DNA of 64,000 bases from Rhizopus arrhizus (lineage: Eukaryota > Mucoromycota > Mucoromycetes > Mucorales > Rhizopodaceae), in contig JAKZZE010000038.1 of the NCBI GenBank assembly GCA_024220505.1, positions 1 to 64,000 of the forward strand, written 5' to 3'. Position 1 is the stretch's first letter; every line of letters starts with the position of its first letter. This document shows, piece by piece, positions 21,568 through 43,988 of the stretch. Under the pieces are notes generated by a model. It saw only the letters and a program-made list of their open reading frames with translations. It made no database searches and had not been told where the DNA came from. Position numbers and translations under genes: made by a program.

Positions 21568-21582
21568 GGCTTCTTGGTTTAG
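21568..21582 (+). repeat. 15-bp tRNA-Pro target stub (site 1)
   Basis: GGCTTCTTGGTTTAG, identical to nucleotides 1-15 of the tRNA-Pro gene at 43917. It lies between the 5' end of LINE copy 1 and the 3' end of the next SINE. The same stub recurs at 22131, 22684, 32221, 32761, 37789 (one change, GGCTTCTTTGTTTAG), 38343 and 43362, and as the start of the tRNA itself. Confidence 0.95.
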
Positions 21583-22130
21583 ACGAAAGTTTTTTTTTTT
21601 TTTATTTTTATTGGTCAAATATGCAGGCGACATTTGTGTCATTAATTGCTTGACCACAGAACGAACTGGGAAAGCATACAAACTGTTAAGGGGGAAGGGA
21701 AGGGAGGGTAAGCAAGGCAATTATTTTGGCTGAAGCGACAGACGAAGACTTGGGACAGAGAGAGAGAGACATGCTTCATTAAGCCCGAGGTGGGCATCCT
21801 TGCAACGCTGATAATGCTGCTCACCAAACAGCACACAACGCAGACCGACCAGAACAGCAGCGGCGTCAAAACCCAGGGAGGAAAGAGAGAACAGAAAGGG
21901 ATGCCAACGGGGACACCGAAAGGGAGGGAAGGTGGACCAGATACCCAGCTGGCACGCAACGCAACACACAGGCGGGACACACCGAAAGCCAGAGACGACG
22001 CACGTTAAGGAAGTCATGTGACCGTGCGTGGAAGAGACGGTGCGAGGAAGGCAGGATTCGAACCTGCATGTCCAATGGACACTCAACCCATACGGTAGCG
22101 TCTTAACCACTACGACAAACACCCACACCT
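21583..22130 (-). mobile_element. SINE family 1, copy a
   Basis: A 548-bp element bounded by the 15-mer stubs at 21568 and 22131. Read on the minus strand it starts with a class II tRNA-like head: A box GTCGTAGTGGTTAAG, variable-arm-like GTGTCCATTGGACA and B box GGTTCGAATCC. A body of about 400 bp follows. It ends in an A/T-rich tail ..TGACCAATAAAAATAAAA.. then CTTTCGT at the target. The 135-codon frame running through it is non-coding shadow. It is transcribed, if at all, by RNA polymerase III from the internal boxes. Confidence 0.9.
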
Positions 22131-22145
22131 GGCTTCTTGGTTTAG

Positions 22146-22683
22146 ACGAAACTTTTTATTTTTATTGGTCATATATGCAGGCGACATATGTGTCATTAAT
22201 TGCTTGACCACAGAACGAACTGGGAAAGCATACAAACTGTAATGGGGGAAGGGAAGGGAGGGTAAGCAGGGCAATTATTTGGCTGAAGCGACAGACGAAG
22301 ACTTGGAACAGAGAGAGAGAGACATGCTTCATTAAGCCCGAGGTGGGCATCCTTGCAACGCTGATAATGCTGCTCACCAAACAGCACACAACGCAGACCG
22401 ACCAGAACAGCAGCGGCGTCAAAACCCAGGGAGGAAAGAGAGAACAGAAAGGGATGCCAACGGGGACACCGAAAGGGAGGGAAGGTGGACCAGATACCCA
22501 GCTGGCACGCAACGCAACACACAGGCGGGACACACCGAAAGCCAGAGACGACGCACGTTAAGGAAGTCATGTGACCGTGCGTGGAAGAGATGGTGCGAGG
22601 AAGGCAGGATTCGAACCTGCATGTCCAGAGGACACTCAACCCATACGGTAGCGCCTTAACCACTACGACAAACACCCACACCT
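22146..22683 (-). mobile_element. SINE family 1, copy b
   Basis: A 538-bp near-identical copy of the SINE at 21583-22130, with the same tRNA-like head, body and AATAAAAATAAAAAG tail, between 15-mer stubs at 22131 and 22684. The shorter T-run accounts for most of the length difference. Confidence 0.9.
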
Positions 22684-22962
22684 GGCTTCTTGGTTTAGAC
22701 GAAAATTTTTATTAATATATATTAGGAGTATATTGACAAGCGATAAATATCATGATAGTCATACTCAAGAAACAAAAGAGAAAAGATAAGAAACAAAAAA
22801 CACTCGCAGGGCACACAAGAGCGAAAAAAAGGAAAGAGAAAAGGCCAATGGAAGCGCTAACTACTGAGCAACTCGTCAACACCATGGTCTCCTCCGCATC
22901 GTGCACTAAAATGGTTTGGCAGTGGGAGGTAGAAGCCAGAGGGTGGATCAGAGCGCTTGTCA

Positions 22963-25900
22963 TTATGGAACAGCAGCAGCAGAGGACTTGTCAATCCAGA
23001 CTTGACCTGGAGCAGATGATGAGTGGTACTCGGTGTCAGGATGACAGATCTTGTCAAAGTGACAGAGGATCTGACAAAGAGCGGACCAGAAAGGCGGACA
23101 CCGAGCAGAAGCAGAGACAGGCAGCAAGTTCAAGACATAGTCTATGTGGTGACCCACATAGTCAGGCGGCGGAACAGGCAAGCAGCACCAAAGAGCAGAA
23201 GGAACCAAGGTACAGACCATAAGATGAGAACGAGAAGTATCGCCAAAACCACAGGAACAGGGAGCAGGCTTACCTGGGATCCAACCCATGCGCCATCTGA
23301 TAAGACGAGACCGGTCAGCACGGGAGGCAGGCAAGTACAGGATGGGATCCACCCGAAGAACAGGACGACAAGCGCGAATCAGAACCTGGGGGGTGGACTG
23401 TAAGAAGCTTTGAAATTGACCTTGGCGATACCTTCGCAGCCAAGAAGCAAGACGAGAAGACGAAAGAGGAGCATCCGAAGGGTAGTCGAGTACGATTTGC
23501 CGCTTACGGAGCTGTGTCAGCAATGAAGACGAGACAGAAGAAGACAGCAGAGACAAGAGACAGTCATCAGGAAGGCCATTGAATCGAAGGCAGAACTTCA
23601 GAACCAAGGTATCTGCTCGAAATGTCATTGACGGCAGATTAGTGATATGGCGGAGGACGACAGTCGAGGCAGTTCGGTGACCGCCGACAAGCATTCGTAG
23701 ACACCGGTCTTGAGCACGGTTGAGCTCTTCACCGTCCTTTCTTGTAAGTCGAGCAATAGCAAGGCCGTACTCGAGCTTAGGACGGATGAAGGCAGCAAAG
23801 AGACGAGAAGAGAGAAGCAGAGTAAAGCCTTGACGGTTAAGGCCCATAGAGTGAAGCTGAGCCATAGCCGCCAAGGTACTTGAAGAGCGATGCTTTATCA
23901 TGGCAGACACTGAGATACCTTTACCATCAAAAGGGACACCAAGATAAGTAAACTCCTCAGTTGTAGGAAGATCTTGACCATACAACGACATTGACACAAA
24001 GCGACTTGATGTAGCAGTAGGTGCATTTAGGACGGCACACTTTGGTGGACTCCACTTGTAACCAAGAGTCAGAGAATGGATCTGCGCTAGGTCCAGCATA
24101 TGCCGAACTTCGCTAGCAGACCCAACCAGCGCCACATCATCCGCATACAACAGACTGTTGATGGGTGTGGGCGACGGAGACGAGGAAGACAAAGCAGCAG
24201 AACCAACCAAAGGACCAAAGGGAAGACCATCGGAGACCAGAGCACCAGGACCAGGAGGACCAGAAGGAGACACCGATAACACCGAGGTGGTTGTTGCAGA
24301 AGCAGCAGAACGAAGCAGAGCTGGCAATGTGTTGACATAGATAGAGTACAGGTGAGGACTCAAGACAGAGCCCTGAAGGACACCTGTACTCGGCACAAAC
24401 GGATCAGAGACATTGTTCTGCAACAACACAGACACCGAGACATCATCAAACATGTTGGCCAACAAGGACACCAAGGACAGAGGAGCAGAAGAGGCGAGCA
24501 TCGATTGCCATATGATACGACGATCGACTGTATCATAGGCTGACTTGATGTCCAGGAAAGCGACCACAGGATAATGATTGTGTCGGCGTCGGTAAGAGTG
24601 CATCAGATCATGAAGACAGAGAGCTTGATCCAATGCACTACGCTGGTGACGGAAACCACCTTGAACTACATCGAGCGGAGGAGAGACATCTTCAACAAAG
24701 AGAAAGAGACACATCTCAAAGAGCTTGCGGACGATGGAGGTCAAGGAGATTGGACGATAGTTCCCTGGCGAGGTAGGATCACCCTTTTTATGGATGGGGA
24801 CCACCTGTGCTTGACGCCAGAGAGAAGGGGTATACGACCACTGGTAGCAGATACTGAAAAGCAAAGAGAGCAGTGGGGCCAGAACAGACTTGATGGGGAG
24901 GAGCATCTCCGTACGCAAGTGGTCAGGACCAGGAGCCTTACGCAGAGGGAGACGTCGCATCAGTGAACCCACACTGTCAGCAGAGAACGAGGGCATACCA
25001 GGGTCTTGACTATCGAGGTCAAAAGGCACCATACCAGAGACAGAGGGCAGAGGGTCAGGACGCCTTGACGGAAGACCGTCACCAGAGTAGACCGAGGCAA
25101 GGTGTTGACGCATCGCGTTCGCACCTGCAGCAGGGCCGTCAGGATGAGTAAACCCAACCTGTTGACGTCGTCGGTTCCGAATCACCTTCACCTTCGACAT
25201 CGCACGAGCAAGTTCGCCACGGGCCAGAGAGTCACAGAAAGCACGCCAAGAGAGACGTTTGGCAGACTTGAGAGCAGAGCGGAACCGGGCTTGAGCGACC
25301 TGATGTCTATCCCACCACAAGGCCTTGTCGATGCCAATGGCACGGCGCCACTTGCGGTAGTGGTGTTCACGAACATCGGCGAGTTCTTGCAAGTGCGCAT
25401 TCCAGAATGGCTTCCATTGGGAAGGTCGAGAAGAGCGAGAGCCAACCGACTTGTCGAGTGCACTATAGATCGCCTCGTTCAGAGTGTCATTGAGAGCGTC
25501 TATAGGCGGAGCAGCAGAAGGAGGACTTGACTTCAGTGCTTTGAGCTGATCAACCAATGGAGAGACCAAGGACTGGAATGTGGCCACGTACAGACTACAG
25601 ACATCGGGTTCCTTCAACCGAGAGAGGTTCCATAGCCGACGGGCAGAAGAAGAAGCAGAAGAGAGAACGTGCTGCGATGGATAACCATCAGGGACTGCAT
25701 AGTCAAAGGACAAGGACAACAGTTTGTGGTCAGAGCCAAGAGAGAGATCACTGTAGACTTGCATCCGAGGGGACCGAAGGACAGAGGTCATGTTGGTCAA
25801 GAAGTAGTCGATCATACTTTGCTTGACTTGACCACCACGAAAGGACAAGAAGGTAGGCACCCCAGGAGCGAGAGTCGAGTTCAGAACAGAGAGACCATGT

Positions 25901-26532
25901 TCTTCACACCAGCGAAGCAGCACCGAACCTCGAGCATTGGCAACGGAATCACCCGTTAGTGCACCAAGACGCGCGTTCAGATCACCACAGATGATCGTGT
26001 CGTCTGTCAAGGGCAACGAAACCAACACAGAAGAGACCTCGTCGTTGGACAAGGAAGGGGGCAAATACAGGCAGATGAGACGCAAGGAGCGACCCAACCG
26101 CAGACCCAGAGCATACTTGGTATGAACCGGGAACTGTACCACAGCCATCGGACACCGAGGAGACACCAGAGCAGAGACACCTTGAGAGCCACGATAGCTG
26201 TTGATCACAGGAGAGCCATACAGGTTGAACTGGGTCCAAGAGGTACGGATCCTGTGAGGCGGAAGCAACCAGGTTTCAGTGATAAACACCAGAGAGAACG
26301 ACTGGCAGTGACGAAGAAGATCCTCGGCTGTGGATTCTTGAAGCCCATTGGCATTCCACAAGCCGATTGTGAGCGGTATAGAAGAAGTTGATAAAGATGA
26401 AGGAGTGAATGAACCATGGGAGCCATGAGAACCAGAGGAAACCAAAGGAGAGGAAGGAGTTGACTGATCTGGGACCATACCAGATGTAGAGACCGAGGAT
26501 GCATTATAACGACAAGTATTACTACTCATCAT
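22963..26532 (-). CDS. LINE ORF2: endonuclease and reverse transcriptase (copy 2)
   Basis: 1189 residues. An apurinic-like endonuclease spans about residues 52-275, with Asn61 (WNANG), Glu86 (ITETW), Asp184/Asn186 (GDLN), Asp242 (MIDYF) and Asp268-His269 (GSDHK). A reverse transcriptase spans about 530-840, with KAPGPDHL, NYRPISLTSI, FLDIKSAYD (659-667) and the catalytic LLYADD (YADD 796-799). Near the C-terminus is a zinc-knuckle-like CSCGFGDTSRSHLMVC (1092-1107). No RNase H domain is apparent. The enzyme would nick the tRNA-Pro target and copy LINE RNA onto the cut end. CLFLFVEDV replaces CLFPSVEDV of the other copies. All key residues are present, so it may be active if expressed. Confidence 0.93.
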   Translation of the reverse strand: MMSSNTCRYNASSVSTSGMVPDQSTPSSPLVSSGSHGSHGSFTPSSLSTSSIPLTIGLWNANGLQESTAEDLLRHCQSFSLVFITETWLLPPHRIRTSWTQFNLYGSPVINSYRGSQGVSALVSPRCPMAVVQFPVHTKYALGLRLGRSLRLICLYLPPSLSNDEVSSVLVSLPLTDDTIICGDLNARLGALTGDSVANARGSVLLRWCEEHGLSVLNSTLAPGVPTFLSFRGGQVKQSMIDYFLTNMTSVLRSPRMQVYSDLSLGSDHKLLSLSFDYAVPDGYPSQHVLSSASSSARRLWNLSRLKEPDVCSLYVATFQSLVSPLVDQLKALKSSPPSAAPPIDALNDTLNEAIYSALDKSVGSRSSRPSQWKPFWNAHLQELADVREHHYRKWRRAIGIDKALWWDRHQVAQARFRSALKSAKRLSWRAFCDSLARGELARAMSKVKVIRNRRRQQVGFTHPDGPAAGANAMRQHLASVYSGDGLPSRRPDPLPSVSGMVPFDLDSQDPGMPSFSADSVGSLMRRLPLRKAPGPDHLRTEMLLPIKSVLAPLLSLLFSICYQWSYTPSLWRQAQVVPIHKKGDPTSPGNYRPISLTSIVRKLFEMCLFLFVEDVSPPLDVVQGGFRHQRSALDQALCLHDLMHSYRRRHNHYPVVAFLDIKSAYDTVDRRIIWQSMLASSAPLSLVSLLANMFDDVSVSVLLQNNVSDPFVPSTGVLQGSVLSPHLYSIYVNTLPALLRSAASATTTSVLSVSPSGPPGPGALVSDGLPFGPLVGSAALSSSSPSPTPINSLLYADDVALVGSASEVRHMLDLAQIHSLTLGYKWSPPKCAVLNAPTATSSRFVSMSLYGQDLPTTEEFTYLGVPFDGKGISVSAMIKHRSSSTLAAMAQLHSMGLNRQGFTLLLSSRLFAAFIRPKLEYGLAIARLTRKDGEELNRAQDRCLRMLVGGHRTASTVVLRHITNLPSMTFRADTLVLKFCLRFNGLPDDCLLSLLSSSVSSSLLTQLRKRQIVLDYPSDAPLSSSRLASWLRRYRQGQFQSFLQSTPQVLIRACRPVLRVDPILYLPASRADRSRLIRWRMGWIPGKPAPCSCGFGDTSRSHLMVCTLVPSALWCCLPVPPPDYVGHHIDYVLNLLPVSASARCPPFWSALCQILCHFDKICHPDTEYHSSSAPGQVWIDKSSAAAVP

Positions 26533-27518
26533 TATAATGATCCAAAGCTAGAGCGAGAGGCAGGACGGTGATGTTGATAATCATCAAGAGCCATATCTTC
26601 AGCCATGTCATCGTAGTGGCGGACAGTCTTGGGACGATCTTCCTTGGCAGACAGAACTTCAGATACTGTCTCATCAGAGACCAAAGCTTGTGCTAACAGG
26701 TAGCGAGAGACAGAGACAGCAACAGGATAGCGCAAGCGCTCTAAGGCCTTACGAGAACGATCATCATTGATAAGCGAGATAGCATGGCTACGCTCGTCAG
26801 CAGAAACAGAGTCAAACTTGGGATCAGCCAGGTTAGCAGGATCAAGTGGATCAAAGGTATCCAAGCTAGGGATCTTGGCCTTTTCCAACAAGGACAGAAG
26901 AGCAGGCTTGTACTGCAGATGTACAAGAAGACCGACAACAGAGTGGGCAGGATAGCAAACATCCAAGATGCGCCAGCTATCCACACCAAGACGAGAGAGA
27001 CGACGACGAGCTTCAGTGTAGGTCATCCTACGAGAGCGAGGTATGTAAACATACTCGAAGCCTTGTTCACCAGACACAGGCTGGAAACCACGAGCAGCGG
27101 CAGCACGACGACGGAGTTTGTTCTTTGTAGAACGAGAAACAACAGTGGCCCAAGAAGAGGCAGCAGTACCCAAGGTGGGCGAAGAAACGGACTCTCTAGC
27201 ACCAGTAGGAGCAGTAGCAGAAGAAAGAGCGGCATTTGAGCTTGGGGTGCTGGTAGGGACCCCGGTAGATTGTGCGGCTAGCTGAGCACGCAAAGAAGCA
27301 ATCTCATTGGCCTGAGACTGGTTGTGTTCGGCAAGGCGAGCATTCTCTCCTCGCAGAGTTTCAAGCTCTAGCTTGAGCTGCTCTAAAGCAGAGAGACGAG
27401 CAGTGACAGTCTCCAGTGCGTGACTTAGATTCTGAACTGTGACTTCGAGCTCGGACGAATTATGTCCGGCGGCGGCATTCAGGATTTTGGATCCTCTAGT
27501 ATTTCTTGTTGAAGACAT
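26532..27518 (-). CDS. LINE ORF1 protein (copy 2)
   Basis: The first in-frame ATG starts MSSTRNTRGSKILNAAAG, and I prefer it over upstream non-ATG codons because it is shared by all copies. The protein has a coiled coil near residues 30-80 (SALEQLKLELETLRGENARL), a Ser/Thr/Ala-rich linker, a basic stretch NKLRRRAAAARGFQP and a folded-looking C-terminal part (YIPRSRRMTYTEARRRL..). There are no zinc knuckles. It probably coats LINE RNA. The stop codon TAA overlaps the ORF2 ATG (TAATG), so ORF2 is likely made by termination-reinitiation. Confidence 0.85.
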   Translation of the reverse strand: MSSTRNTRGSKILNAAAGHNSSELEVTVQNLSHALETVTARLSALEQLKLELETLRGENARLAEHNQSQANEIASLRAQLAAQSTGVPTSTPSSNAALSSATAPTGARESVSSPTLGTAASSWATVVSRSTKNKLRRRAAAARGFQPVSGEQGFEYVYIPRSRRMTYTEARRRLSRLGVDSWRILDVCYPAHSVVGLLVHLQYKPALLSLLEKAKIPSLDTFDPLDPANLADPKFDSVSADERSHAISLINDDRSRKALERLRYPVAVSVSRYLLAQALVSDETVSEVLSAKEDRPKTVRHYDDMAEDMALDDYQHHRPASRSSFGSL

Positions 27519-27925
27519 TTGGATGCAAACTTTCAACGACGATTAAGCAACAAGTATAAGAGATATCGAGATATGAGTTGAACCAAATAAAAGTATAGAT
27601 CAAAAGGAGTCGATTGATGTAAAAATTGTTGATGGATGGATAGATTTGACAGAGATATCGCACTGCAAATAATTGGAGATATTAAACGCAGTTTTTTAGC
27701 ATAAATGAGCGCAACTACGCGAAGTTTAACGCAAATCCGCGGAATTTTATTGCTGTTTTAAACGATTTTCGAGGCAGAGCAGTAATCGTTAAATAACTTT
27801 TACGCAAGCAAGAGGAGGTCATTTAGTGTTCTTTTACTGAAGCATTTTTTACGTTTTAATCAATGATAGTCAACGTTTGGGCAACGAATGATACTTTTTA
27901 AAACATTACTTTATATGTCTTTTTG

Positions 27926-28136
27926 TTCTTTTATCGACCGCTCATATTGCCTAATATACTTCTTCATCGAACACTCATATTGCCTTATATACTTCTTTGT
28001 TGACCACTTATATTGCCTTATATATTTCTTTATTGACCACTCATATAGCTTATATACTTCTTTATGAACCACTTATATAGCTTTATATACTTCTTTATTG
28101 GCTATTCATATTGCAATAAATATTGCTTTATATACA
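27926..28136 (+). repeat. Subterminal minisatellite of the CACTA-like element
   Basis: Roughly six imperfect direct copies of a unit of about 33 bp with consensus close to TTCTTTATTGACCACT followed by CATATTGCCTTATATAC. Subterminal repeats are typical transposase-binding regions in CACTA elements; that function is inferred here. Confidence 0.75.
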
Positions 28137-28849
28137 CAAAAAATAGGTATTTGGTTTATAAAAAACAGCTTTTTTTTTATTTAAATAAAATAACAATAAC
28201 AATACATGGTATTTCTTTGCTAGTAGCGTTTTAAAAGTGTAATTGACTTACCTAATGTCATCAGGATAGCAGCATCTAATCTAAAAATACATCAATTAAT
28301 CTCGTGGAACTCAAAAAAAAATTTTTAAAAAAAAAAGCCAAGCTCAAGGATTCAGAGACACAAGGATTCGAGGACTTGGGCACTCAAAGCAAAAGAAAAA
28401 ACATCAGTACTTAAGAACCAAAGCAAAGACAGAAAAGAGATAGACGAGGCCAAAGCAAAGCAGCATTCATCTATAATAGTTATTAGCTATCGTGTATATA
28501 TAATGAAAGTAATAGTACCTTTATTTAGATGGGCTAAGAGAAAAACCTTGCTAAGCTTTACCAACAAGTATAAAAAAAAGGAAGCAGAACGCATCTATAG
28601 TAAATATTAGCTATCGAGTATATAGTAAAAGTAATAGTACCTTGCTTTAGATAGACCATGAGATAAAAAAAAAGAAAAAAAAGACACCAGCCAAGCTTAT
28701 AGCAACAAGTAAAAAAAGAAGCAATGATAATCCTGGAAGAGACTTTATAAAGACCATTTAAACTATAAAGAAAGCAACCAACACAAATTTACTAAAGAAC
28801 AAATACCATAAGAATAGAAATAGAATATATATAATGTTAAGAACTTACC

Positions 28850-28950
28850 TTTTAGAAAGAATTGTTTTTTTTAAAAAAAAAAAAAGAAGAAAAAAAAAAG
28901 AAGAAAAAAAAAAGGAAAAAAAAAAGGAAAAAAAAAGGAAAAAAAGTACA
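28850..28950 (+). repeat. Purine-only low-complexity tract
   Basis: A run of A-rich sequence broken by single G or GG (AAGAAAAAAAAAGAAG.., AAAAAGGAAAAAAAAAGG). It lies about 300 bp upstream of the four-exon gene and has no coding content. Confidence 0.7.
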
Positions 28951-29257
28951 TTTTTTATAACTCATTTTACATGGGTTACAATTACCCATTAACGGTTAAC
29001 AATAAGTTTTCTTTAACACTGTTTAACTATTGAAACATTCAGAGAGGCTATTCATAAACAGTTTAAATTCTTTTTTTTTATTTAAATGTAATATCTTTAA
29101 CACCAAAGACTTTTTTTCTTTGCTTCTTTTGTAAAATAAATGTAAGTATCACCTTGTTTTGTACTCATCTTCAATTTATTTTGTACCCCTGTTTTTTCTT
29201 TTTTTTTTTTCTTTTTTTTTCCTTTTTTTTTTTTCCTTATATAATTTGTTTTAAAAA

Positions 29258-30505
29258 ATGTCTCGTCGTGCTGCCACCCCCATCAACGTTCCCAGTAATG
29301 CCCCTAAAAGGGCAAGAATATCTTCAAGCATTACTGGATCATCATCCACTGTTGTCCCGTCCTCTTCTCCTGCTCCCACTGCTGTTGCGTCTTTTGACAG
29401 CTTTGAGCCTTCTCGCCTGCAAGGCGCAGTTGGCTCTTCTGCAAATGGCCAAACCCTTGAGGCCATCTTTGCTCAGATGCAGCAGCAGGAGCAGATTCAA
29501 CGCCGACAGGAGGAGAATCAACGTCGGCAGGAGCTGAAGATTGAGCAGTTAACGCAATTGCTGCAACAACAGCAACAAGGGCAGCAACAGCAGCAGCAGC
29601 CTCCACAGCAGCCTCCACAGCAGCAACCTTCTGAGGTCAAAGAGAATAAGGCCTCGACAAGTGTAATTTGAATTTAAAAGCTAAATTAGCATGTGCAAAA
29701 TAATAACTAAATTTTTGTTTTACCCTTTTTGAAATATAGGCTTTCATATTGAAGTACTACAGAGAGCATCTGGTCCCTCGGGGTATCACCTTTGACCTGA
29801 AGGAGGTCTTGCGCTACAAGCAAAACGCAAAGGTCAGAGATTTGCTTGTAGCAGCTGCCAAGAAGGAGCCATTTTCTGCTGGCATTACTGTTTCTGACAT
29901 GCGCAGCATGGTCAGAAACAAATTCAACTACATGGTGAGAGAAAGTAAGGGGCTAACGGCTACGTCAGAAGAATCAACGCGTCGTAGTCGTGTGCATGCA
30001 GTAAGTAATTAATATTTAAAAATTGAAATATATAGTGTTTCAAGTACTTACATTACTTCTTTACATTAGAAGCTCGCCATGAGGCGAAATGCTTACAATG
30101 CAGTCCCAGAGGAATTTGAAGCTCGTTTTCCTTTTGGAAAAAAGCTTCTGATAGCCGATTGGACCTCAGAGGAAGAAGATGGTCCTGAGGATGAACATGG
30201 TCCTGTGTTTGTGGTAAAAAGACCACTCTTTCGAAGTAAAGCAGTAAGTAGTATTTTTGTTATAGTATTCATTTTCTAATATACCTTTAACTAATCTACA
30301 GGTGGACGAACTCCATGCTTCTCTTCAAAAAGCATGGAGAGATTCCTTGTCGAAAAAAGGCACTATCAATAGAACAAGAAGGGTGGTGGACTACTTCGAC
30401 AAGGAGTTCCCCACAAACCTTGACCATGAGGATTATCCCTCTTGGGCCTTTTCTTCTCCTGGCCTTGGCTTTTCCTCTTCTGCTGCTGCTAATCCTATGC
30501 AGTAA
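29258..30505 (+). CDS. Four-exon gene of unknown function carried by the CACTA-like element
   Basis: I do not recognise the family. Exons 29258-29662, 29740-30000, 30070-30243 and 30302-30505 join in phase 0 across three GT/AG introns of 58-77 bp to give 347 residues. Residues 1-70 are Ser/Ala/Pro-rich with a basic patch (NAPKRARISS). Residues about 75-130 form a Gln-rich, probably coiled-coil segment (..MQQQEQIQRRQEENQRRQ..). The rest is charged and globular-looking: REHLVPRGITFDLKEVL, SMVRNKFNYMVRES, an Arg/Ser motif TRRSRVHA, EARFPFGKKLLIADW and a C-terminal ..TRRVVDYFDKEFP... The pattern (dimerisation segment plus basic region) would fit a DNA-binding or regulatory accessory protein, which is inference only. 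It is preceded by T-rich promoter-like sequence. Confidence 0.72.
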
Positions 30506-30535
30506 GCGTTTACTTTCTCTTTTCTCTTTCCCCCT

Positions 30536-30539
<4 letters not shown>

Positions 30540-30570
<31 letters not shown>
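30540..30570 (+). repeat. Poly-T tract of about 31 bases
   Basis: An uninterrupted T run directly after the stop codon region of the four-exon gene. Similar 28-35 base A/T runs occur near 56920, 59732, 61412 and 63421. Confidence 0.8.
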
Positions 30571-30574
<4 letters not shown>

Positions 30575-30599
30575 CCTCTTTTGTTGTCTGTACAAATTG

Positions 30600-32160: not shown

Positions 32161-32235
32161 AGTGTCGGCTTTCCAAAAAAGAGTTGAATTTACCTTTTTA
32201 ACCAAAAGCGAAAGAAAAGTGGCTTCTTGGTTTAG

Positions 32236-32760: not shown

Positions 32761-33037
32761 GGCTTCTTGGTTTAGACGAAAATTTTTATTAATATATATA
32801 ATGAGTATATTGACAGGCGATAAATATCATGATAGTCATACTCAAGAACAAAAAGAAAAGACAAGAAACAAAAAACACTCGCAGAGCACACAAAAGTGAA
32901 AAAAAGGAAGGAGAAAAGGCCAATGGATACGCTAACTACCGAGCAACTCGTCAACACCATGGTCTCCTCCGCATCGTGCACTAAAATGGTTTGGCAGTGG
33001 GAGGTAGAAGCCAGAGGGTGGATCGGAGCGCTTGTCA

Positions 33038-36000: not shown

Positions 36001-36607
36001 CTCGAGCATTGGCAACGGAATCACCCGTTAGTGCACCAAGACGCGCGTTCAGATCACCACAGATGATCGTGTCGTCTGTCAAGGGCAACGAAACCAACAC
36101 AGAAGAGACCTCGTCGTTGGACAAGGAAGGAGGCAAATACAGGCAGATGAGACGCAAGGAGCGACCCAACCGCAGACCCAGAGCATACTTGGTATGAACC
36201 GGGAACTGTACCACAGCCATCGGACACCGAGGAGACACCAGAGCAGAGACACCTTGAGAGCCACGATAGCTGTTGATCACAGGAGAGCCATACAGGTTGA
36301 ACTGGGTCCAAGAGGTACGGATCCTGTGAGGCGGAAGCAACCAGGTTTCAGTGATGAAGACCAAAGAGAACGACTGGCAGTGACGGAGGAGATCCTCGGC
36401 TGTGGATTCTTGAAGCCCATTGGCATTCCACAAGCCGATTGTGAGCGGAATAGAAGAAGTTGATGACGATGACGAAGGAGAGGATGGACCATGGGAGCCA
36501 TGAGAACCAGAGGAAACCAAAGGAGAGGAAGGAGTTGACTGATCTGGGACCATACCAGATGTAGAGACCAAGGATGCATTATAATGACAAGTATTACTAC
36601 TCATCAT
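33038..36607 (-). CDS. LINE ORF2: endonuclease and reverse transcriptase (copy 3)
   Basis: 1189 residues with the same order as copy 2: Ser-rich N-terminus, endonuclease (WNANGLQ, ITETWL, CGDLNARL, IDYFLTN, SDHKLL), linker, reverse transcriptase (KAPGPDHL, NYRPISLTSI, FLDIKSAYD, LLYADD) and C-terminal CSCGLGDTSRSHLMVC knuckle. It differs from copy 2 in clustered blocks in the last third, for example RYVRMSLYDQDLPSVEEF versus RFVSMSLYGQDLPTTEEF, and SEGLPDDCLLSLLSQSVPV. This suggests recombination among lineages. All catalytic residues are present, so the enzyme may be functional and could also mobilise the SINEs nearby. Confidence 0.93.
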   Translation of the reverse strand: MMSSNTCHYNASLVSTSGMVPDQSTPSSPLVSSGSHGSHGPSSPSSSSSTSSIPLTIGLWNANGLQESTAEDLLRHCQSFSLVFITETWLLPPHRIRTSWTQFNLYGSPVINSYRGSQGVSALVSPRCPMAVVQFPVHTKYALGLRLGRSLRLICLYLPPSLSNDEVSSVLVSLPLTDDTIICGDLNARLGALTGDSVANARGSVLLRWCEEHGLSVLNSTLAPGVPTFLSFRGGQVKQSMIDYFLTNTTSVLRSPRMQVYSDLSLGSDHKLLSLSFDYAVPDGYPSQPVLSSSSSARRLWNLSRLKEPDVCSLYVATFQSLVSPLVDQLKALKSSPPSAAPPIDALNDTLNEAIYSALDKSVGSRSSRPSQWKPFWNAHLQELADVREHHYRKWRRAIGIDKALWWDRHQAAQARFRSALKSAKRLSWRAFCDSLARGELARAMSKVKVIRNRRRQQVGFTHPDGPAAGANAMRQHLASVYSGDGLPSRRPDPLPSVSGMVPFDLDSQDPGMPSFSADSVGSLMRRLPLRKAPGPDHLRTEMLLPIKSVLAPLLSLLFSICYQWSYTPSLWRQAQVVPIHKKGDPTSPGNYRPISLTSIVRKLFEMCLFPSVEDVSPPLDVVQGGFRHQRSALDQALCLHDLMHAYRRRHNHYPVVAFLDIKSAYDTVDRRIIWQSMLASSAPLSLVSLLANMFDDVSVSVLLQNNVSDPFVPSTGVLQGSVLSPHLYSIYVNTLPALLRSAASATTTSVLSVSPSGPPCPGALVSDGLPFGPLVGTAALSSSSLSPTPINSLLYADDVALVGSASEVRHMLDLAQIHSLTLGYKWSPPKCAVLNAPTATSSRYVRMSLYDQDLPSVEEFTYLGVPFDGKGISVSALIKHRASGTFAAMAQLHSMGLNRQGFTLLLSSRLFAAFIRPKLEYGLAIAQLTRKDYDELNRAQDRCLRMLVGGHRTASTVVFRHITNLPSMSFRADTLVLKFCRRSEGLPDDCLLSLLSQSVPVSLLSRLRKRRIVLDYPSDAPLSSSRLASWLRRYRQDQFHSFLQSTPQVLIRACRPVLRVDPILYLPASRADRSRLVRWRMGWIPGKPAPCSCGLGDTSRSHLMVCTLVPSALWCCLPVPPTGYVGHHIDYVLNLLPVSASARCPPFWSALCQILCHFDKICHPDIEYNSSSAPGQVWIDKSSAAAVP

Positions 36608-37593
36608 TATAATGATCCAAAGCTAGAGCGAGAGGCAGGACGGTGATGCTCATAGTCATCAAGAGCCATGTCTTCAGCCATATCATCGTAATGGCGGGCA
36701 GTCTTGGGTCGATCTTCCTTAGCAGACAGAACTTCAGATACTGTCTCATCAGAGACAAGGGCTTGCGCCAACAAGTAACGAGAGACAGAGACAGCAACAG
36801 GATAGCGCAAGCGCTCTAAAGCCTTGCGAGAACGATCATCATTAATCAGTGAGATAGCATGGCTACGCTCCTCGACAGAAACAGAGTCAAACTTGGGATC
36901 GGCCAGGTTGGCAGGGTCAAGTGGATCGAAAGTATCCAAGGTGGGGATCTTGGCCTTTTCGAGCAAGGACAGAAGAGCAGGCTTGTACTGCAGATGTACG
37001 AGCAGACCGACAACAGAGTGAGCAGGATAGCACACATCCAAGATGCGCCAGCTATCCACACCAAGACGAGAGAGACGACGACGAGCTTCGGTGTAGGTCA
37101 TCCTACGAGAGCGAGGTATGTAAACATACTCGAAGCCTTGTTCACCAGTTACAGGCTGGAAACCACGAGCAGCAGCGGCACGACGACGGAGTTTGTTCTT
37201 GGCAGAACGAGAAACAACAGTAGCCCAAGAAGAGGCAGCAGTACCCAAGGAGGGCGAAGGAACGGACTCTTTAGCACCATTATGAGCGGCAGCAGAAGAA
37301 ACAGCGGTAGTTGAATTAGGGGTGCTTGTAGGGACCCCGGCAGTTTGTGCGGCCAGTTGGGACCGCAAGGAAGCAATCTCATTGGCCTGAGACAGGTTTG
37401 TTTCGGTAAGGCGAGCGTTCTCACCTCGCAGAGTTTCAAGCTCTAGCTTGAGCTGCTCTAAAGCAGAGAGACGAGCAGTGACAGCTTCCAGTGCGTGACT
37501 TAGATTCTGAACTGTGACTTCGAGCTCGGACGAATTGGGTCCGGCGGCGGCATTCAGGATTTTGGATCCTCTAGTATTTCTTGTTGATGACAT
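36607..37593 (-). CDS. LINE ORF1 protein (copy 3)
   Basis: 328 residues from MSSTRNTRGSKILNAAAG. The coiled coil, Ala/Ser linker and basic NKLRRRAAAARGF region are as in copy 2. The C-terminal half ends ..DYEHHRPASRSSFGSL and is followed by TAATG coupling to ORF2. It has no zinc knuckle or RRM consensus that I can recognise. The likely role is RNA binding in the retrotransposition particle. Confidence 0.85.
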   Translation of the reverse strand: MSSTRNTRGSKILNAAAGPNSSELEVTVQNLSHALEAVTARLSALEQLKLELETLRGENARLTETNLSQANEIASLRSQLAAQTAGVPTSTPNSTTAVSSAAAHNGAKESVPSPSLGTAASSWATVVSRSAKNKLRRRAAAARGFQPVTGEQGFEYVYIPRSRRMTYTEARRRLSRLGVDSWRILDVCYPAHSVVGLLVHLQYKPALLSLLEKAKIPTLDTFDPLDPANLADPKFDSVSVEERSHAISLINDDRSRKALERLRYPVAVSVSRYLLAQALVSDETVSEVLSAKEDRPKTARHYDDMAEDMALDDYEHHRPASRSSFGSL

Positions 37594-37803
37594 TTGGATG
37601 CAAACTTTCAGCAACGATTAAGCAACAAGCAGTAAAGATATCAGAATAAGAGTTGAACCAAATAAAAGTATAGATCAAAAGGAGTCGATTGATGTAAAAA
37701 TTGTTGATGGATGGATAGATTTGACAGAGATATCGGCTTTCCAAAAAAGAGTCAAGTTTACCTTTTTAACCAAAAGCGAAAGAAAAGTGGCTTCTTTGTT
37801 TAG

Positions 37804-38342
37804 ACGAAAGTTTTTATTTTTATTGGTCAAATATGCAGGCGACATATGTGTCATTAATTGCTTGACCACAGAACGAACTGGGAAAGCATACAAACTGTTA
37901 AGGGGGAAGGGAAGGGAGGGTAAGCAGGGCAATTATTTTAGCTGAAGCGACAGACGAAGACTTGGAACAGAGAGAGAGAGACATGCTTCATTAAGCCCGA
38001 GGTGGGCATCCTTGCAACGCTGATAATGCTGCTCACCAAACAGCACACAACGCAGACCGACCAGAACAGCAGCGGCGTCAAAACCCAGGGAGGAAAGAGA
38101 GAACAGAAAGGAATGCCAACGGGGACACCGAAAGGGAGGGAAGGTGGACCAGATACCCAGCTGGCACGCAACGCAACACACAGGCGGGACACACCGAAAG
38201 CCAGAGACGACGCACGTTAAGGAAGTCATGTGACCGTGCGTGGAAGAGACGGTGTGAGGAAGGCAGGATTCGAACCTGCATGTCCAAAGGACACTCAACC
38301 CATACGGTAGCGCCTTAACCACTACGACAAACACCCACACCT
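37804..38342 (-). mobile_element. SINE family 1, copy d
   Basis: A 539-bp copy almost identical to those at 21583 and 22146, with the same class II tRNA-like head and AATAAAAATAAAAAC tail, between stubs at 37789 and 38343. Confidence 0.9.
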
Positions 38343-38619
38343 GGCTTCTTGGTTTAGACGAAGATTTTTATTAATATATAAGGAGTATATTGACAAGCGA
38401 TAAATATCATGATAGTCATACTCAAGAAACAAAAGAGAAAAGACAAGAAACAAAAAACACTCGCAGAGCACACAAGAGCGAAAAAAAGGGAAGAGAAAAG
38501 GCCAATGGATACGCTAACTACTGAGCAACTCGTCAACACCATGGTCTCCTCCGCATCGTGCACTAAAATGGTTTGGCAGTGGGAGGTAGAAGCCAGAGGG
38601 TGGATCAGAGCGCTTGTCA

Positions 38620-41600
38620 TTATGGAACAGTAGTAACAGAGGACTTGTCAATCCAGACTTGACCTGGAGCAGAAGACGAGTTGTACTCGGTGTCAGGATG
38701 ACAGATCTTGTCAAAGTGACAGAGGATCTGACAAAGAGCGGACCAGAAAGGCGGACACCGAGCAGAAGCAGAGACAGGAAGCAAGTTCAAGACATAGTCT
38801 ATGTGGTGACCCACATAACCAGTCGGCGGAACAGGTAAGCAGCACCAAAGAGCAGAAGGAACCAAGGTACAGACCATGAGATGAGAACGAGAAGTATCGC
38901 CAAGACCACAGGAACAGGGAGCAGGCTTGCCTGGGATCCAACCCATGCGCCATCTGATGAGACGAGACCGGTCAGCACGGGAGGCAGGCAAGTACAGGAT
39001 GGGATCCACCCGAAGAACAGGGCGACAAGCGCGGATCAGAACCTGGGGAGTGGACTGTAAGAAGCTATGAAACTGGTCTTGACGATACCTTCGCAACCAA
39101 GAAGCAAGACGAGAAGATGAAGAGACATCCGAAGGGCAATCGAGGACGATACGCCGCTTACGGAGTCGAGACAGAAGAGACACTGGCACAGACTGAGAGA
39201 GCAAAGACAAGAGACAATCGTCAGGTAGGCCCTCAGAACGACGACAGAACTTGAGCACCAGGGCGTCAGCACGGAAGGTCATCGAAGGCAGGTTGCAGAT
39301 ATGACGAAGTACAACAGTTGAGGCCGTTCGATGACCACCGACAAGCATTCGTAAGCATCGGTCTTGCGCACGATTGAGTTCGTCATAGTCCTTTTTTGTA
39401 AGCTGAGCAATGGCAAGGCCATACTCAAGCTTAGGACGTATGAACGCAGCGAACAGACGAGAAGAGAGCAGCAGAGTAAAGCCTTGACGGTTAAGACCCA
39501 TAGAGTGAAGCTGAGCCATAGCCGCCAAGGTACTTGAAGAGCGATGTTTTATCATGGCAGAGACAGAGATACCCTTACCATCAAAGGGCACACCAAGATA
39601 AGTAAACTCCTCAACAGAGGGAAGGTCTTGATCGTATAGAGACATTCGAATATACCGACTTGATGTAGAGGCAGGTGCATTCAGAACAGCACACTTTGGT
39701 GGACTCCACTTGTAACCAAGAGTCAGAGAATGGATCTGCGCTAGGTCCAGCATATGCCGAACTTCGCTAGCAGACCCAACCAGCGCCACATCATCCGCAT
39801 ACAACAGACTGTTGATGGGTGTGGGCGACAGAGACGAGGAAGACAAAGCAGCAGTACCAACCAAAGGACCAAAGGGAAGACCATCGGAGACCAGAGCACC
39901 AGGACCAGGAGGACCAGAAGGAGACACCGATAACACCGAGGTGGTTGTTGCAGAAGCAGCAGAACGAAGCAGAGCTGGCAATGTGTTGACATAGATAGAG
40001 TACAGGTGAGGACTCAAGACAGAGCCCTGAAGGACACCTGTACTCGGCACAAACGGATCAGAGACATTGTTCTGCAACAACACAGTCACCGAGACATCAT
40101 CAAACATGTTGGCCAACAAGGACACCAAGGACAGAGGAGCAGAAGAGGCGAGCATCGATTGCCATATGATACGACGATCGACTGTATCATAGGCTGACTT
40201 GATGTCCAGGAAAGCGACCACAGGATAATGATTGTGTCGGCGTCGGTAAGCGTGCATCAGATCATGGAGACAGAGAGCTTGATCCAATGCACTACGCTGG
40301 TGACGGAAACCACCTTGAACTACATCGAGCGGAGGAGAGACATCTTCAACAGAGGGAAAGAGACACATCTCAAAGAGCTTGCGGACGATGGAGGTCAAGG
40401 AGATTGGACGATAGTTCCCTGGCGAGGTAGGATCACCCTTTTTGTGAATGGGGACCACCTGTGCTTGACGCCAGAGAGAAGGGGTATATGACCACTGGTA
40501 GCAGATACTGAAAAGCAAAGAGAGCAGTGGGGCCAGAACAGACTTGATGGGGAGGAGCATCTCCGTACGCAAGTGGTCAGGACCAGGAGCCTTACGCAGA
40601 GGGAGACGTCGCATCAGTGAACCCACACTATCAGCAGAGAACGAAGGCATACCAGGGTCTTGACTATCGAGGTCAAAAGGCACCATACCAGAGACAGAGG
40701 GCAGAGGGTCAGGACGCCTTGACGGAAGACCGTCACCAGAGTAGACCGAGGCAAGGTGTTGACGCATCGCGTTCGCACCTGCAGCAGGGCCGTCAGGATG
40801 AGTAAACCCAACCTGTTGACGTCGTCGGTTCCGAATCACCTTCACCTTCGACATCGCACGAGCAAGTTCGCCACGGGCCAGAGAGTCACAGAAAGCACGC
40901 CAAGAGAGACGCTTAGCAGACTTGAGAGCAGAGCGGAACCGGGCTTGAGCAACCTGATGTCGATCCCACCACAAGGCCTTGTCGATGCCAATAGCACGAC
41001 GCCACTTGCGGTAGTGGTGTTCACGAACATCGGCGAGTTCTTGCAAGTGCGCATTCCAGAATGGCTTCCATTGGGAAGGTCGAGAAGAGCGAGAGCCAAC
41101 CGACTTGTCGAGTGCACTATAGATCGCCTCATTCAAAGTGTCATTGAGAGCGTCTATAGGCGGAGCAGCAGAAGGAGGACTTGACTTCAAAGCTTTGAGC
41201 TGATCAACCAATGGAGAGACCAAGGACTGGAATGTGGCCACGTACAGACTACAGACATCGGGTTCCTTCAACCGAGAGAGGTTCCATAGCCGACGGGCAG
41301 AAGAAGAAGAAGAAGAGAGAACGGGCTGCGATGGATAACCATCAGGGACTGCATAGTCAAAGGACAAGGACAACAGTTTGTGGTCAGAGCCAAGAGAGAG
41401 ATCACTGTAGACTTGCATCCGAGGGGACCTAAGGACAGAGGTCATGTTGGTCAAGAAGTAGTCGATCATACTTTGCTTGACTTGACCACCACGAAAGGAC
41501 AAGAAGGTAGGTACCCCAGGAGCGAGGGTCGAGTTCAGAACAGAGAAACCATGTTCTTCACACCAGCGAAGCAGCACCGAACCTCGAGTATTGGCAACGG

Positions 41601-42180
41601 AATCACCCGTTAGTGCACCAAGACGCGCGTTCAGATCACCACAGATGATCGTGTCGTCTGTCAAGGGCAACGAAACCAACACAGAAGAGACCTCGTCGTT
41701 GGACAAGGAAGGGGGCAAATACAGGCAGATGAGACGCAAGGAGCGACCCAACCGCAGACCCAGAGCATACTTGGTATGAACCGGGAACTGTACCACAGCC
41801 ATCGGACACCGCGGAGACACCAGAGCAGAAACACCTTGAGAGCCACGATAGCTGTTGATCACAGGAGAGCCATACAGGTTGAACTGGGTCCAAGAGGTAC
41901 GGATCCTGTGAGGCGGAAGCAACCAGGTTTCAGTGATGAAGACCAAAGAGAACGACTGGCAGTGACGGAGGAGATCCTCGGCTGTGGATTCTTGAAGCCC
42001 ATTGGCATTCCACAAGCCGATGGTGAGCGGAATAGAAGATGATGAAGAGGATGATGATGGACCATGGGAGCCATGAGAACCAGAGGAAACCAAAGGAGAG
42101 GAAGGTGTTGACTGATCTGGGACCATACCAGATGTAGAGACCGAGGATGCATTATAACGACAAGTATTACTACTCATCAT
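38620..42180 (-). CDS. LINE ORF2: endonuclease and reverse transcriptase (copy 4)
   Basis: 1186 residues, three fewer than copies 2 and 3, through a shorter Ser-rich N-terminus (HGPSSSSSSSSIPLT) and a loss in the C-terminal region (DCPSDVSSSSRLA). The endonuclease residues (WNANG, ITETW, GDLN, IDYF, SDHK), the reverse transcriptase motifs (FLDIKSAYD, LLYADD) and the CSCG..SHLMVC knuckle are intact. The sequence between residues about 850 and 1030 mixes blocks typical of copy 2 (MIKHRSSSTLAAMAQ) and copy 3 (LYDQDLPSVEEF), another mosaic sign. Confidence 0.93.
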   Translation of the reverse strand: MMSSNTCRYNASSVSTSGMVPDQSTPSSPLVSSGSHGSHGPSSSSSSSSIPLTIGLWNANGLQESTAEDLLRHCQSFSLVFITETWLLPPHRIRTSWTQFNLYGSPVINSYRGSQGVSALVSPRCPMAVVQFPVHTKYALGLRLGRSLRLICLYLPPSLSNDEVSSVLVSLPLTDDTIICGDLNARLGALTGDSVANTRGSVLLRWCEEHGFSVLNSTLAPGVPTFLSFRGGQVKQSMIDYFLTNMTSVLRSPRMQVYSDLSLGSDHKLLSLSFDYAVPDGYPSQPVLSSSSSSARRLWNLSRLKEPDVCSLYVATFQSLVSPLVDQLKALKSSPPSAAPPIDALNDTLNEAIYSALDKSVGSRSSRPSQWKPFWNAHLQELADVREHHYRKWRRAIGIDKALWWDRHQVAQARFRSALKSAKRLSWRAFCDSLARGELARAMSKVKVIRNRRRQQVGFTHPDGPAAGANAMRQHLASVYSGDGLPSRRPDPLPSVSGMVPFDLDSQDPGMPSFSADSVGSLMRRLPLRKAPGPDHLRTEMLLPIKSVLAPLLSLLFSICYQWSYTPSLWRQAQVVPIHKKGDPTSPGNYRPISLTSIVRKLFEMCLFPSVEDVSPPLDVVQGGFRHQRSALDQALCLHDLMHAYRRRHNHYPVVAFLDIKSAYDTVDRRIIWQSMLASSAPLSLVSLLANMFDDVSVTVLLQNNVSDPFVPSTGVLQGSVLSPHLYSIYVNTLPALLRSAASATTTSVLSVSPSGPPGPGALVSDGLPFGPLVGTAALSSSSLSPTPINSLLYADDVALVGSASEVRHMLDLAQIHSLTLGYKWSPPKCAVLNAPASTSSRYIRMSLYDQDLPSVEEFTYLGVPFDGKGISVSAMIKHRSSSTLAAMAQLHSMGLNRQGFTLLLSSRLFAAFIRPKLEYGLAIAQLTKKDYDELNRAQDRCLRMLVGGHRTASTVVLRHICNLPSMTFRADALVLKFCRRSEGLPDDCLLSLLSQSVPVSLLSRLRKRRIVLDCPSDVSSSSRLASWLRRYRQDQFHSFLQSTPQVLIRACRPVLRVDPILYLPASRADRSRLIRWRMGWIPGKPAPCSCGLGDTSRSHLMVCTLVPSALWCCLPVPPTGYVGHHIDYVLNLLPVSASARCPPFWSALCQILCHFDKICHPDTEYNSSSAPGQVWIDKSSVTTVP

Positions 42181-43166
42181 TATAATGATCCAAAGCTTGA
42201 ACGAGAGGCAGGACGGTGATGCTCATAGTCATCAAGAGCCATGTCTTCAGCCATATCATCGTAATGACGAGCAGTCTTGGGTCGATCTTCCTTGACAGAC
42301 AGAACTTCAGATACTGTCTCATCAGAGACAAGGGCTTGCGCCAACAAGTAACGAGAGACAGAGACAGCAACAGGATAGCGCAAGCGCTCTAAAGCCTTGC
42401 GAGAACGATCATCATTAATCAGCGAGATGGCATGGCTACGCTCTTCAGCAGAAACAGAGTCAAACTTGGGATCGGCCAGGTTAGCAGGATCAAGAGGGTC
42501 GAACGTATCCAAGGTGGGGATCTTGGCCTTTTCCAACAAGGACAGAAGAGCAGGCTTGTACTGAAGATGTACCAGAAGACCGACAACAGAGTGGGCAGGA
42601 TAGCAAACATCCAAGATGCGCCAGCTATCCACACCAAGACGAGAGAGACGACGACGAGCTTCAGTGTAGGTCATCCTACGAGAGCGAGGTATATAGACAT
42701 ACTCGAAGCCTTGTTCACCAGAAACGGGCTGGAAACCACGAGCAGCGGCAGCACGACGACGAAGCTTGTTCTTGGTGGAACGAGAAACAACAGTAGCCCA
42801 AGAAGAGGCAGCAGTACCCAAGGTGGGCGAAGAAACGGTATCTTTAGCACCGTTAGGAGCGGCAGCAGAAGAAAGAGCGGCATTTGAATTGGGGGTGCTT
42901 GTAGGGGCCCCGGCAGTTTGTGCGGCCAGTTGGGCCCGCAAAGAAGCAATCTCATTGGCTTGAGATTGGTTAGTTTCGGCAAGGCGAGCATTCTCACCTC
43001 GTAAATTTTCAAGCTCTAGCTTAAGCTGTTCTAGAGCAGAGAGACGAGCAGTGACCGCTTCAAGTGCGTGACTGAGATTCTGAACTGTGACTTCGAGGTC
43101 GGACGAATTGGGTCCGGCGGCGGCATTCAGGATTTTAGATCCTCTTGTATTTCTTGTTGAAGACAT
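42180..43166 (-). CDS. LINE ORF1 protein (copy 4)
   Basis: 328 residues from MSSTRNTRGSKILNAAAG, with coiled coil, linker, basic region and C-terminal domain nearly identical to copies 2 and 3 (..IPTLDTFDPLDPANLADPKF..). Its stop overlaps the ORF2 ATG in TAATG. Confidence 0.85.
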   Translation of the reverse strand: MSSTRNTRGSKILNAAAGPNSSDLEVTVQNLSHALEAVTARLSALEQLKLELENLRGENARLAETNQSQANEIASLRAQLAAQTAGAPTSTPNSNAALSSAAAPNGAKDTVSSPTLGTAASSWATVVSRSTKNKLRRRAAAARGFQPVSGEQGFEYVYIPRSRRMTYTEARRRLSRLGVDSWRILDVCYPAHSVVGLLVHLQYKPALLSLLEKAKIPTLDTFDPLDPANLADPKFDSVSAEERSHAISLINDDRSRKALERLRYPVAVSVSRYLLAQALVSDETVSEVLSVKEDRPKTARHYDDMAEDMALDDYEHHRPASRSSFGSL

Positions 43167-43376
43167 TTGGATGCAAACTTTCAGCAACGATTAAGCAACA
43201 AGTATGAAAGATATCGAGATATGAGTTGTACCAAATAAAAGTATAGATCAAAAGGAGTCGATTGATGTAAAAATTGTTGATGGATGGATAGATTTGACAG
43301 AGATATCGGCTTGCAAAAAAAGAGTCAAGTTTACCTTTTGAACCAAAAGCGAAAGAAAAGTGGCTTCTTGGTTTAG

Positions 43377-43916
43377 ACGAAAGTTTTTTATTTTTATTGG
43401 TCAAATATGCAGGCGACATATGTGTCATTAATTGCTAGACCACAGAACGAACTGGGAAAGCATACAAACTGTTAAGGGGGAAGGGAAGGGAGGGTAAGCA
43501 GGGCAATTATTTTAGCTGGAGCGACAGACGAAGACTTAGAACAGAGAGAGAGAGACATGCTTCATTAAGCCCGAGGTGGGCATCCTTGCAACGCTGATAA
43601 TGCTGCTCACCAAACAGCACACAACGCAGACCGACCAGAACAGCAGCGGCGTCAAAACCCAGGGAGGAAAGAGAGAACAGAAAGGGATGCCAACGGGGAC
43701 ACCGAAAGGGAGGGAAGGTGGACCAGATACCCAGCTGGCACGCAACGCAACACACAGGCGGGACACACCGAAAGCCAGAGACGACGCACGTTAAGGAAGT
43801 CATGTGACCGTGCGTGGAAGAGACGGTGCGAGGAAGGCAGGATTCGAACCTGCATGTCCAGAGGACACTCAACCCATACGGTAGCGCCTTAACCACTACG
43901 ACAAACACCCACACCT
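43377..43916 (-). mobile_element. SINE family 1, copy e, adjoining the tRNA-Pro gene
   Basis: A 540-bp copy with its 3' end at the stub 43362-43376 and its 5' end exactly at nucleotide 1 of the tRNA-Pro gene. The far-side copy of the 15-mer is therefore the first 15 bases of the intact tRNA. By the model this is the most recent insertion. Confidence 0.92.
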
Positions 43917-43988
43917 GGCTTCTTGGTTTAGTGGTATAATTCTCGCTTAGGGTGCGAGAGGTCCCGGGTTCGATTCCCGGAGAAGCCC
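43917..43988 (+). tRNA. tRNA-Pro (anticodon AGG)
   Basis: The 72-nt gene folds as a standard cloverleaf. The acceptor GGCTTCT pairs perfectly with AGAAGCC, and the anticodon stem CTCGC/GCGAG encloses loop TTAGGGT (anticodon AGG). The T arm CCGGG-TTCGATT-CCCGG is perfect, and the discriminator base is C. It closely resembles eukaryotic tRNA-Pro(AGG). Nucleotides 1-15 are the sequence repeated at every LINE/SINE junction to the left; the insertion point between nt 15 and 16 lies in the internal A box. There is no intron. It should decode CCU/CCC after inosine modification of A34. Confidence 0.97.

Follow-up and report, generated by a model that had tools for sequence, protein, structure and literature searches.

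R1 and R2, long interspersed nuclear elements (LINEs) that are site-specific for multicopy RNA genes, kill the individual gene copy into which they insert. Prokaryotic integrative elements that use attachment (att) sites in transfer RNA (tRNA) genes insert within the gene and leave an intact tRNA, with the restoring fragment carried by the element. The NeSL elements, a further clade of LINEs, have a restriction-like endonuclease. LINEs of this clade located in particular tRNA genes have been described: NeSL-1_TV in tRNA-Pro, LIN15_SM in tRNA-Arg and LIN25_SM in tRNA-Glu are given in the accessible part of the paper by Kojima and Jurka (2015, PMC4640811). Here we analyse a stretch of 64,000 nt (positions 1 to 64,000 of contig JAKZZE010000038.1, assembly GCA_024220505.1, hereafter the window) from the fungus Rhizopus arrhizus, in which LINEs and short interspersed nuclear elements (SINEs) form an array at a tRNA-Pro(AGG) gene. 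Very probably, a LINE family with an apurinic/apyrimidinic endonuclease (APE) and its partner SINEs integrate within the A box of tRNA genes, and the 14-bp stagger of the insertion restores the tRNA.

The NeSL-clade LINEs likewise target tRNA genes, one of them even tRNA-Pro. The system described here differs in its APE-type endonuclease, in the use of 11 tRNA species instead of one, in its partner SINEs and in a 14-nt duplication that rebuilds the gene; the exact cut sites of the NeSL elements do not appear in the accessible part of the source (PMC4640811). Dada DNA transposons also reside inside tRNA genes, several lineages at nt 8–13, the A box, across tRNA species, but these are DDE transposons with 6–7 bp duplications, and rebuilding through duplication of nt 1–14 is not mentioned in the available portions of the two papers (PMC8869645, PMC3706591). 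The dictyostelid TRE5 and TRE3 elements and NLTR-A are likewise LINEs aimed at tRNA genes. The TREs insert some way off (about 50 bp upstream and 100 bp downstream), in contrast to a junction inside the tRNA at nt 14; NLTR-A, found 2–6 bp 5′ of tRNAs, has an RNase H, which Pfam did not find here, and its duplication is not described in the excerpts available, so that a similar trick is possible (PMC5006619, PMC5911963). Dewa, Keno and Mutsu are site-specific LINEs of multicopy RNA genes as well, with other targets (the tRNA-Leu spacer in the case of Dewa), according to the accessible text of PMC3706591. The genome paper on R. oryzae, as far as its text was available, describes Ty3 elements close to tRNA genes and a LINE share of 3.78%, and does not link the LINEs to tRNAs (PMC2699053). 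Unlike the prokaryotic att-site elements, the elements described here restore the tRNA by the target-site duplication and not by an element-borne fragment.

A preliminary description of the window had contrasted the insertions with the Dictyostelium TREs and proposed a distinct strategy of targeting. The contrast stands, but the strategy is not without precedent, since LINEs that sit within tRNA genes have been published before (PMC4640811, seen in part). What appears to be new is targeting across A boxes, the sharing of the target by LINE and SINEs and the regeneration of the gene; in the open-licence literature, as far as its texts were accessible and with subscription papers outside the scope, we recognised no report of LINEs that rebuild tRNA genes.

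Nine copies of a 15-mer, nt 1–15 of tRNA-Pro(AGG), lie at element boundaries between 21568 and 43917. The positions given for them earlier hold; eight copies are exact and the one at 37789 has one change, while shuffled sequence yields on average 0.23 matches at up to two mismatches. ARAGORN calls only one tRNA in the window, the tRNA-Pro(AGG) at 43917–43988. The elements are antisense to it, with the 3′ end on the 15-mer and the 5′ end on tRNA nt 1. Read from left to right, a unit consists of a stub (the detached 5′ end of the tRNA), an element 3′ end, an element 5′ end and the next stub; the last stub is the whole tRNA.

The genome (50.26 Mb, 41 contigs, numbered with the prefix C) was scanned. 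The 15-mer has 50 exact matches. Eight clusters hold 49 of them, and a single one stands by itself on C28; the reversed 15-mer, used as a control pattern, has none. A T-arm pattern (≤3 mismatches), with the species named by ARAGORN, gave seven sites with tRNA-Pro(AGG) genes, and all seven have the 5′ end of an element directly before nt 1 (two LINEs and five SINEs; in one case 8 extra bases intervene). The LINE and SINE copy searches scored the best candidates only, so copy numbers are lower bounds: 40 out of 100 candidates were scored in the search for LINE 5′ ends, and further copies of SINE A and SINE B were examined in part (20 regions). Among the 40 scored LINE 5′ ends, 39 lie within 11 bases of nt 1 of a tRNA, 23 at tRNA-Pro and 16 at other species as named by ARAGORN: Ala(TGC) (6), Gly(TCC) (5), Asp(GTC) (2), Val(AAC) (1), Gly(GCC) (1) and His(GTG) (1). 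The single tRNA-less end (C8:1220967) is cut by a long terminal repeat (LTR) retrotransposon with 382-bp LTRs. Outside this set, one more LINE end adjoins tRNA-Val(TAC). The preliminary description had asked for such a test, namely whether every copy has the 15-mer on its 3′ side and a tRNA-Pro gene or another element on its 5′ side. With the LINE also at Ala, Asp, Gly, Val and His genes, tRNA-Pro is rejected as the sole target; the elements use the A box of 11 or more tRNA species.

At the opposite end of the elements, all 90 recognised 3′ ends (43 LINE, 30 SINE A, 12 SINE B/C and 5 belonging to another GTTAAAG type) are preceded by nt 1–14 of one of 11 tRNA species; 89 match a listed tRNA 14-mer at ≤1 mismatch, and the last is tRNA-Glu(TTC). 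This census covers nine arrays and loci L034–L093 and counts four tail patterns, diverged tails being left uncounted; one listed 14-mer was first drawn from its own junction and afterwards identified as tRNA-Val(TAC). The same tRNA stands on both flanks in 54 of 56 readable elements (33/33 for Pro, 21/23 for the others). The earlier claim that the duplication rebuilds a full tRNA gene beyond the element is borne out. Among the readable elements is a solitary LINE on C18, inserted in tRNA-Gly(GCC); it has the same tRNA on both flanks, and its outer flank is no known element end.

Two tRNAs with A at nt 15, Gly(TCC) and Ala(AGC), set the length of the duplication. Their detached copies read G at this position in 12 cases out of 12 (nine Gly(TCC), three Ala(AGC)), which rules out a duplication of 15 nt. 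Judged by these junctions, the target-site duplication is nt 1–14 of the tRNA, and the 15th base, G, arrives with the element. The earlier reading of 15 bp duplicated outside the elements was thus correct about the duplication and off by one in its length, because in tRNAs with G15 the G of the element and that of the tRNA are indistinguishable; likewise the insertion falls inside the A box, as had been stated, but after nt 14 and not nt 15. All 11 target 14-mers share T8 R9 G10 Y11 A14, the start of the A box of RNA polymerase III (Pol III) genes, and vary elsewhere. It had also been said that element ends stop exactly at tRNA base 1: they do adjoin it, but the LINE 5′ ends are not uniform, varying between the loss of 1 base and the addition of 11 ahead of nt 1.

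The LINE of the window carries two domains in its second open reading frame (ORF2), Exo_endo_phos_2 (2.6e-10) and RVT_1 (2.4e-24) in Pfam; RNase H was not among the Pfam matches. A search of the window LINE for terminal direct repeats of ≥25 nt found none, with only two weak internal matches. By its APE and reverse transcriptase domains, its 14-nt target-site duplication and the absence of LTRs, this LINE is classified as an APE-type non-LTR retrotransposon; judged by domain content (an N-terminal APE domain), it does not match the NeSL class with a restriction-like endonuclease. Among 104 homologues of ORF2, 25 of the 26 with an organism name come from Mucoromycota, and the closest, from Rhizopus delemar, is 88% identical. 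No relatives were found in the viral and genome contig collections searched, and the homologues are known as proteins only. The SINEs have the target and a short tail in common with the LINE. The head of SINE A has a weak match to the Rfam tRNA-Sec model (19 bits, below gathering, E 0.47); SINE B has no Rfam match.

Related LINEs occupy further tRNAs. LINE pieces beside tRNA-Lys(TTT) and at a tRNA-Ile(AAT) stub encode parts of ORF2 that share 41% and 53% identity, respectively, with that of the window LINE, and the 5′ end of the Ile type adjoins four of the nine tRNA-Ile(AAT) genes found by pattern. The terminal 17 nt of the three lineages are alike at 15–17 positions and the preceding 26 nt at only 4–10 (the Lys-type end in this comparison was taken from a copy at tRNA-Met). 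Another repeated end, ..GAGAAGCGCAAGTT, adjoins two tRNA-Ile genes (L136 on C3 and L139 on C14) and is possibly that of a fourth LINE lineage.

The element groups prefer different boxes. CTCA-type boxes occur at none of the 73 junctions of LINE family 1 and SINE A and at 11 of the 17 of SINE B/C and the other GTTAAAG type. Family 1 is also found at tRNA-Val(TAC), which has C at nt 11 and so breaks a strict T11 rule. Family 1 or SINE A stands at six of the seven tRNA-Pro genes, the seventh being taken by SINE B, and by eye at none of 40 surveyed tRNAs: Lys (18), Met (6), Trp (5), Asn (5), Arg (4) and Gly(TCC) (2). Thirty-eight of these are species outside the targets of family 1 and SINE A and two are Gly(TCC), a species with five genes among the tRNAs listed, three occupied and two not. 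The list holds at least 63 tRNAs, of which 40 were examined, 3 were covered by junction loci and 20 were left out.

As read from the DNA itself, the orientation and exact positions of the junctions, the 14-nt duplication, the intact tRNA on the far side, the APE and reverse transcriptase domains and the lack of LTRs outline an insertion mechanism. The endonuclease would nick the tRNA-sense strand after A14, and the freed 3′-OH would prime reverse transcription of the element RNA (target-primed reverse transcription), the last base of which would supply the G at position 15. A second nick would fall 14 bp back, at the boundary of nt −1 and +1; repair would then double nt 1–14, so that the upstream copy is a mere stub, no longer functional, while the downstream one belongs to a whole tRNA gene that keeps its internal promoter. 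Since the rebuilt gene would again be a target and could be hit anew, arrays would extend at the tRNA-proximal end. We infer that rebuilt genes work and are transcribed, because no untouched tRNA-Pro(AGG) gene was detected.

Some LINE 5′ extras come from another tRNA: Pro nt 1–6 at an Ala stub, Gly(TCC) nt 1–8 before tRNA-Pro and, in a third case, Pro nt 1–5 plus two bases before tRNA-Gly. The simplest reading is that the RNA began in the flanking tRNA of the donor copy and was carried to another tRNA species, which would mean that RNA moves between them. Certain copies must be very young, to judge from the LINE at 32776–37788 in the window and the LINE beside tRNA-Pro on C29, which show 0.0000 difference (gaps not counted) in differing neighbourhoods. 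The arrays probably grow at the tRNA end, since a Ty3-like LTR element on C8 (C8:1214848–1220966; 382-bp direct repeats 99.7% identical; rve and Integrase_H2C2 domains) lies 11 bp 5′ of a tRNA stub that is now detached, about as far as the LTR-type ends that were noted by eye beside intact tRNAs; it is as if the stub, no whole gene today, had formerly been one.

Several observations weigh against this account. The placement of interrupted, hence older, elements along the arrays gives a permutation p = 0.11, and sequence ages form no clean gradient along them, which leaves growth exclusively at the tRNA end without proof. The far side is unreadable in 34 of the 90 elements. Two of the 56 readable ones have differing tRNAs, a SINE B on C8 (Glu/Pro) and a SINE A on C34 (Asp/Ala), and the combined junction data add a SINE A on C28 split by a CACTA-like transposon (Pro/Ala); for these, recombination between arrays or an assembly error must be invoked. 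Nine of 40 junction loci have no junction, other sequence occupying the site; at one of the nine, L072 on C14, which lies outside the 40 scored ends, a LINE 5′ end runs into sequence that is not a tRNA. C26 and C28 carry Pro stubs and no tRNA-Pro gene by the T-arm pattern.

Could the 15-mer belong to the LINE and SINEs themselves, within them or as a tail that they carry, its match to tRNA-Pro being a relic of homing or recombination? All but one of the stubs in the tRNA-Pro arrays do carry the identical 15-mer. Nevertheless, the 5′ ends of 11 different tRNAs adjoin one and the same set of LINE and SINE ends, and the matching tRNA is found on the opposite flank in 54 of 56 readable cases. Taken together, the LINE 5′-end, 3′-end and two-flank data refute a carried tail, to which we give practically no credence. 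Arrays arising mainly through tandem or segmental DNA duplication and unequal crossing-over of a few tRNA–element units would account for the SINE B–SINE A pair that C26 and C40 have in common, identical and equally ordered, and for the 2 mosaic elements out of 56; the order of elements varies, however, among the remaining arrays, the identical C29/C32 LINE pair has different neighbours, LINE 5′ ends bear differing few-base additions or trims as from independent reverse-transcription events, and the insertion at Gly(GCC) is a lone one. As the main source of the arrays, such duplication is quite unlikely. We regard as slightly less likely still the notion that insertions are harmful and that arrays mark dispensable tRNA genes: all seven detected tRNA-Pro(AGG) genes have an element directly upstream, which leaves no untouched copy found to do the work.

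A more serious competitor, though one we doubt, is protein tethering, in which TFIIIC/TFIIIB on Pol III genes would bring in the LINE, as with TRE5 and Ty3, and the cut site would follow from geometry with the bases of the A box unread. It would fit the use of 11 unrelated acceptor-stem sequences at a constant distance from the A box, as well as the Ty3-like placement of other elements in this genome, which end about 9–12 bp 5′ of tRNAs or stubs. Yet the choice of box differs by group, with CTCA-type boxes absent from one set of junctions and prevalent in the other, and family 1 and SINE A occupy nearly all tRNA-Pro genes and none of the surveyed tRNAs. This group-specific occupancy of boxes and tRNAs suggests that bases of the DNA are read.

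Tentatively, integration at the A box can be seen in a wider frame: for LINEs and SINEs, the A boxes of the whole tRNA set may serve as a docking site that is renewed with each use, the 5′ ends of the elements having perhaps evolved as substitute tRNA leaders, so that the host would draw its tRNA supply from element-made leaders. The conserved LINE end is the upstream region of each LINE-rebuilt tRNA gene, and SINE heads take that place elsewhere. If true, this would be a eukaryotic counterpart of the tRNA att sites. The insertions themselves show a way in which a LINE can strike an essential gene within its promoter without loss, the duplication being so placed as to rebuild the gene and renew the target. 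With one A-box position serving as the cut site in many tRNA species, the system invites a direct test of how a degenerate promoter motif is read by an APE endonuclease, whether TFIIIC guides the enzyme and how the host tRNA supply tolerates elements as upstream sequence.

The layout of the window array is as follows, stubs and tRNA being on the plus strand and elements on the minus strand. The intact tRNA-Pro(AGG) at 43917..43988, the current landing site (Rfam RF00005, 58.2 bits), is touched at nt 1 by the 5′ end of a SINE A (43377..43916), placed by its junctions and by a 100% copy at C8:1203697–1204236. Moving leftwards, detached copies of tRNA-Pro nt 1–14 plus G, each supported by the 15-mer match and the junction census, alternate with elements. 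The stub at 43362..43376 is followed by a LINE of 5004 bp (38358..43361), whose ORF1 (42180..43190, minus strand, 336 aa stop to stop) has only a sub-cut-off Pfam match, Mod_r, and whose ORF2 (38620..42222, minus strand, 1200 aa stop to stop) encodes the APE endonuclease and reverse transcriptase and, by eye, a C-terminal CCHC-like motif. The stub at 38343..38357 precedes a SINE A (37804..38342), and the stub with one change (37789..37803) precedes the LINE at 32776..37788 already compared with that on C29. After the stub at 32761..32775 come a SINE B with a 3′ end of the GTTAAAG type (32236..32760), the stub at 32221..32235 and a LINE (22699..32220) interrupted from 27661 to about 32165 by a DNA transposon of CACTA-like type. 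Two further SINE A copies (22146..22683 and 21583..22130) lie between stubs at 22684..22698, 22131..22145 and 21568..21582; apart from the one touching the tRNA, the SINEs were identified by the SINE A or SINE B copy search and the junction census. Outermost is a LINE remnant, the 5′ half only (19025..21567), with no 15-mer on its 3′ side; a CCATAA-type short repeat flanks this broken side (near 18990–19025).

By eye, LTR-type ends (..CA) lie about 5–13 bp 5′ of several tRNAs (for example, L103, L105, L114, L121, L123, L125, L126 and L141) and 9–12 bp 5′ of seven, perhaps eight, detached stubs. The array at the end of contig C26 (C26:604268–612456) repeats part of the array at C40:169–186k, with identical SINEs and a LINE 1% different; segmental duplication, a second haplotype or an assembly fault are alternative explanations. 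CACTA-like DNA transposons, with ends CACTGCAAATAAT and, by eye, a 3-bp duplication, are found in the window, at C4:207086, C8:211451 and C28:14228 and at other places. In 13 fetched SINE A copies they are inserted at nearly the same spot, a GTCCA..GGAC hairpin loop in the head, and in the 5′ region of the LINE at one spot in five copies, one of them some bases away; the hot spot is perhaps palindrome-directed.

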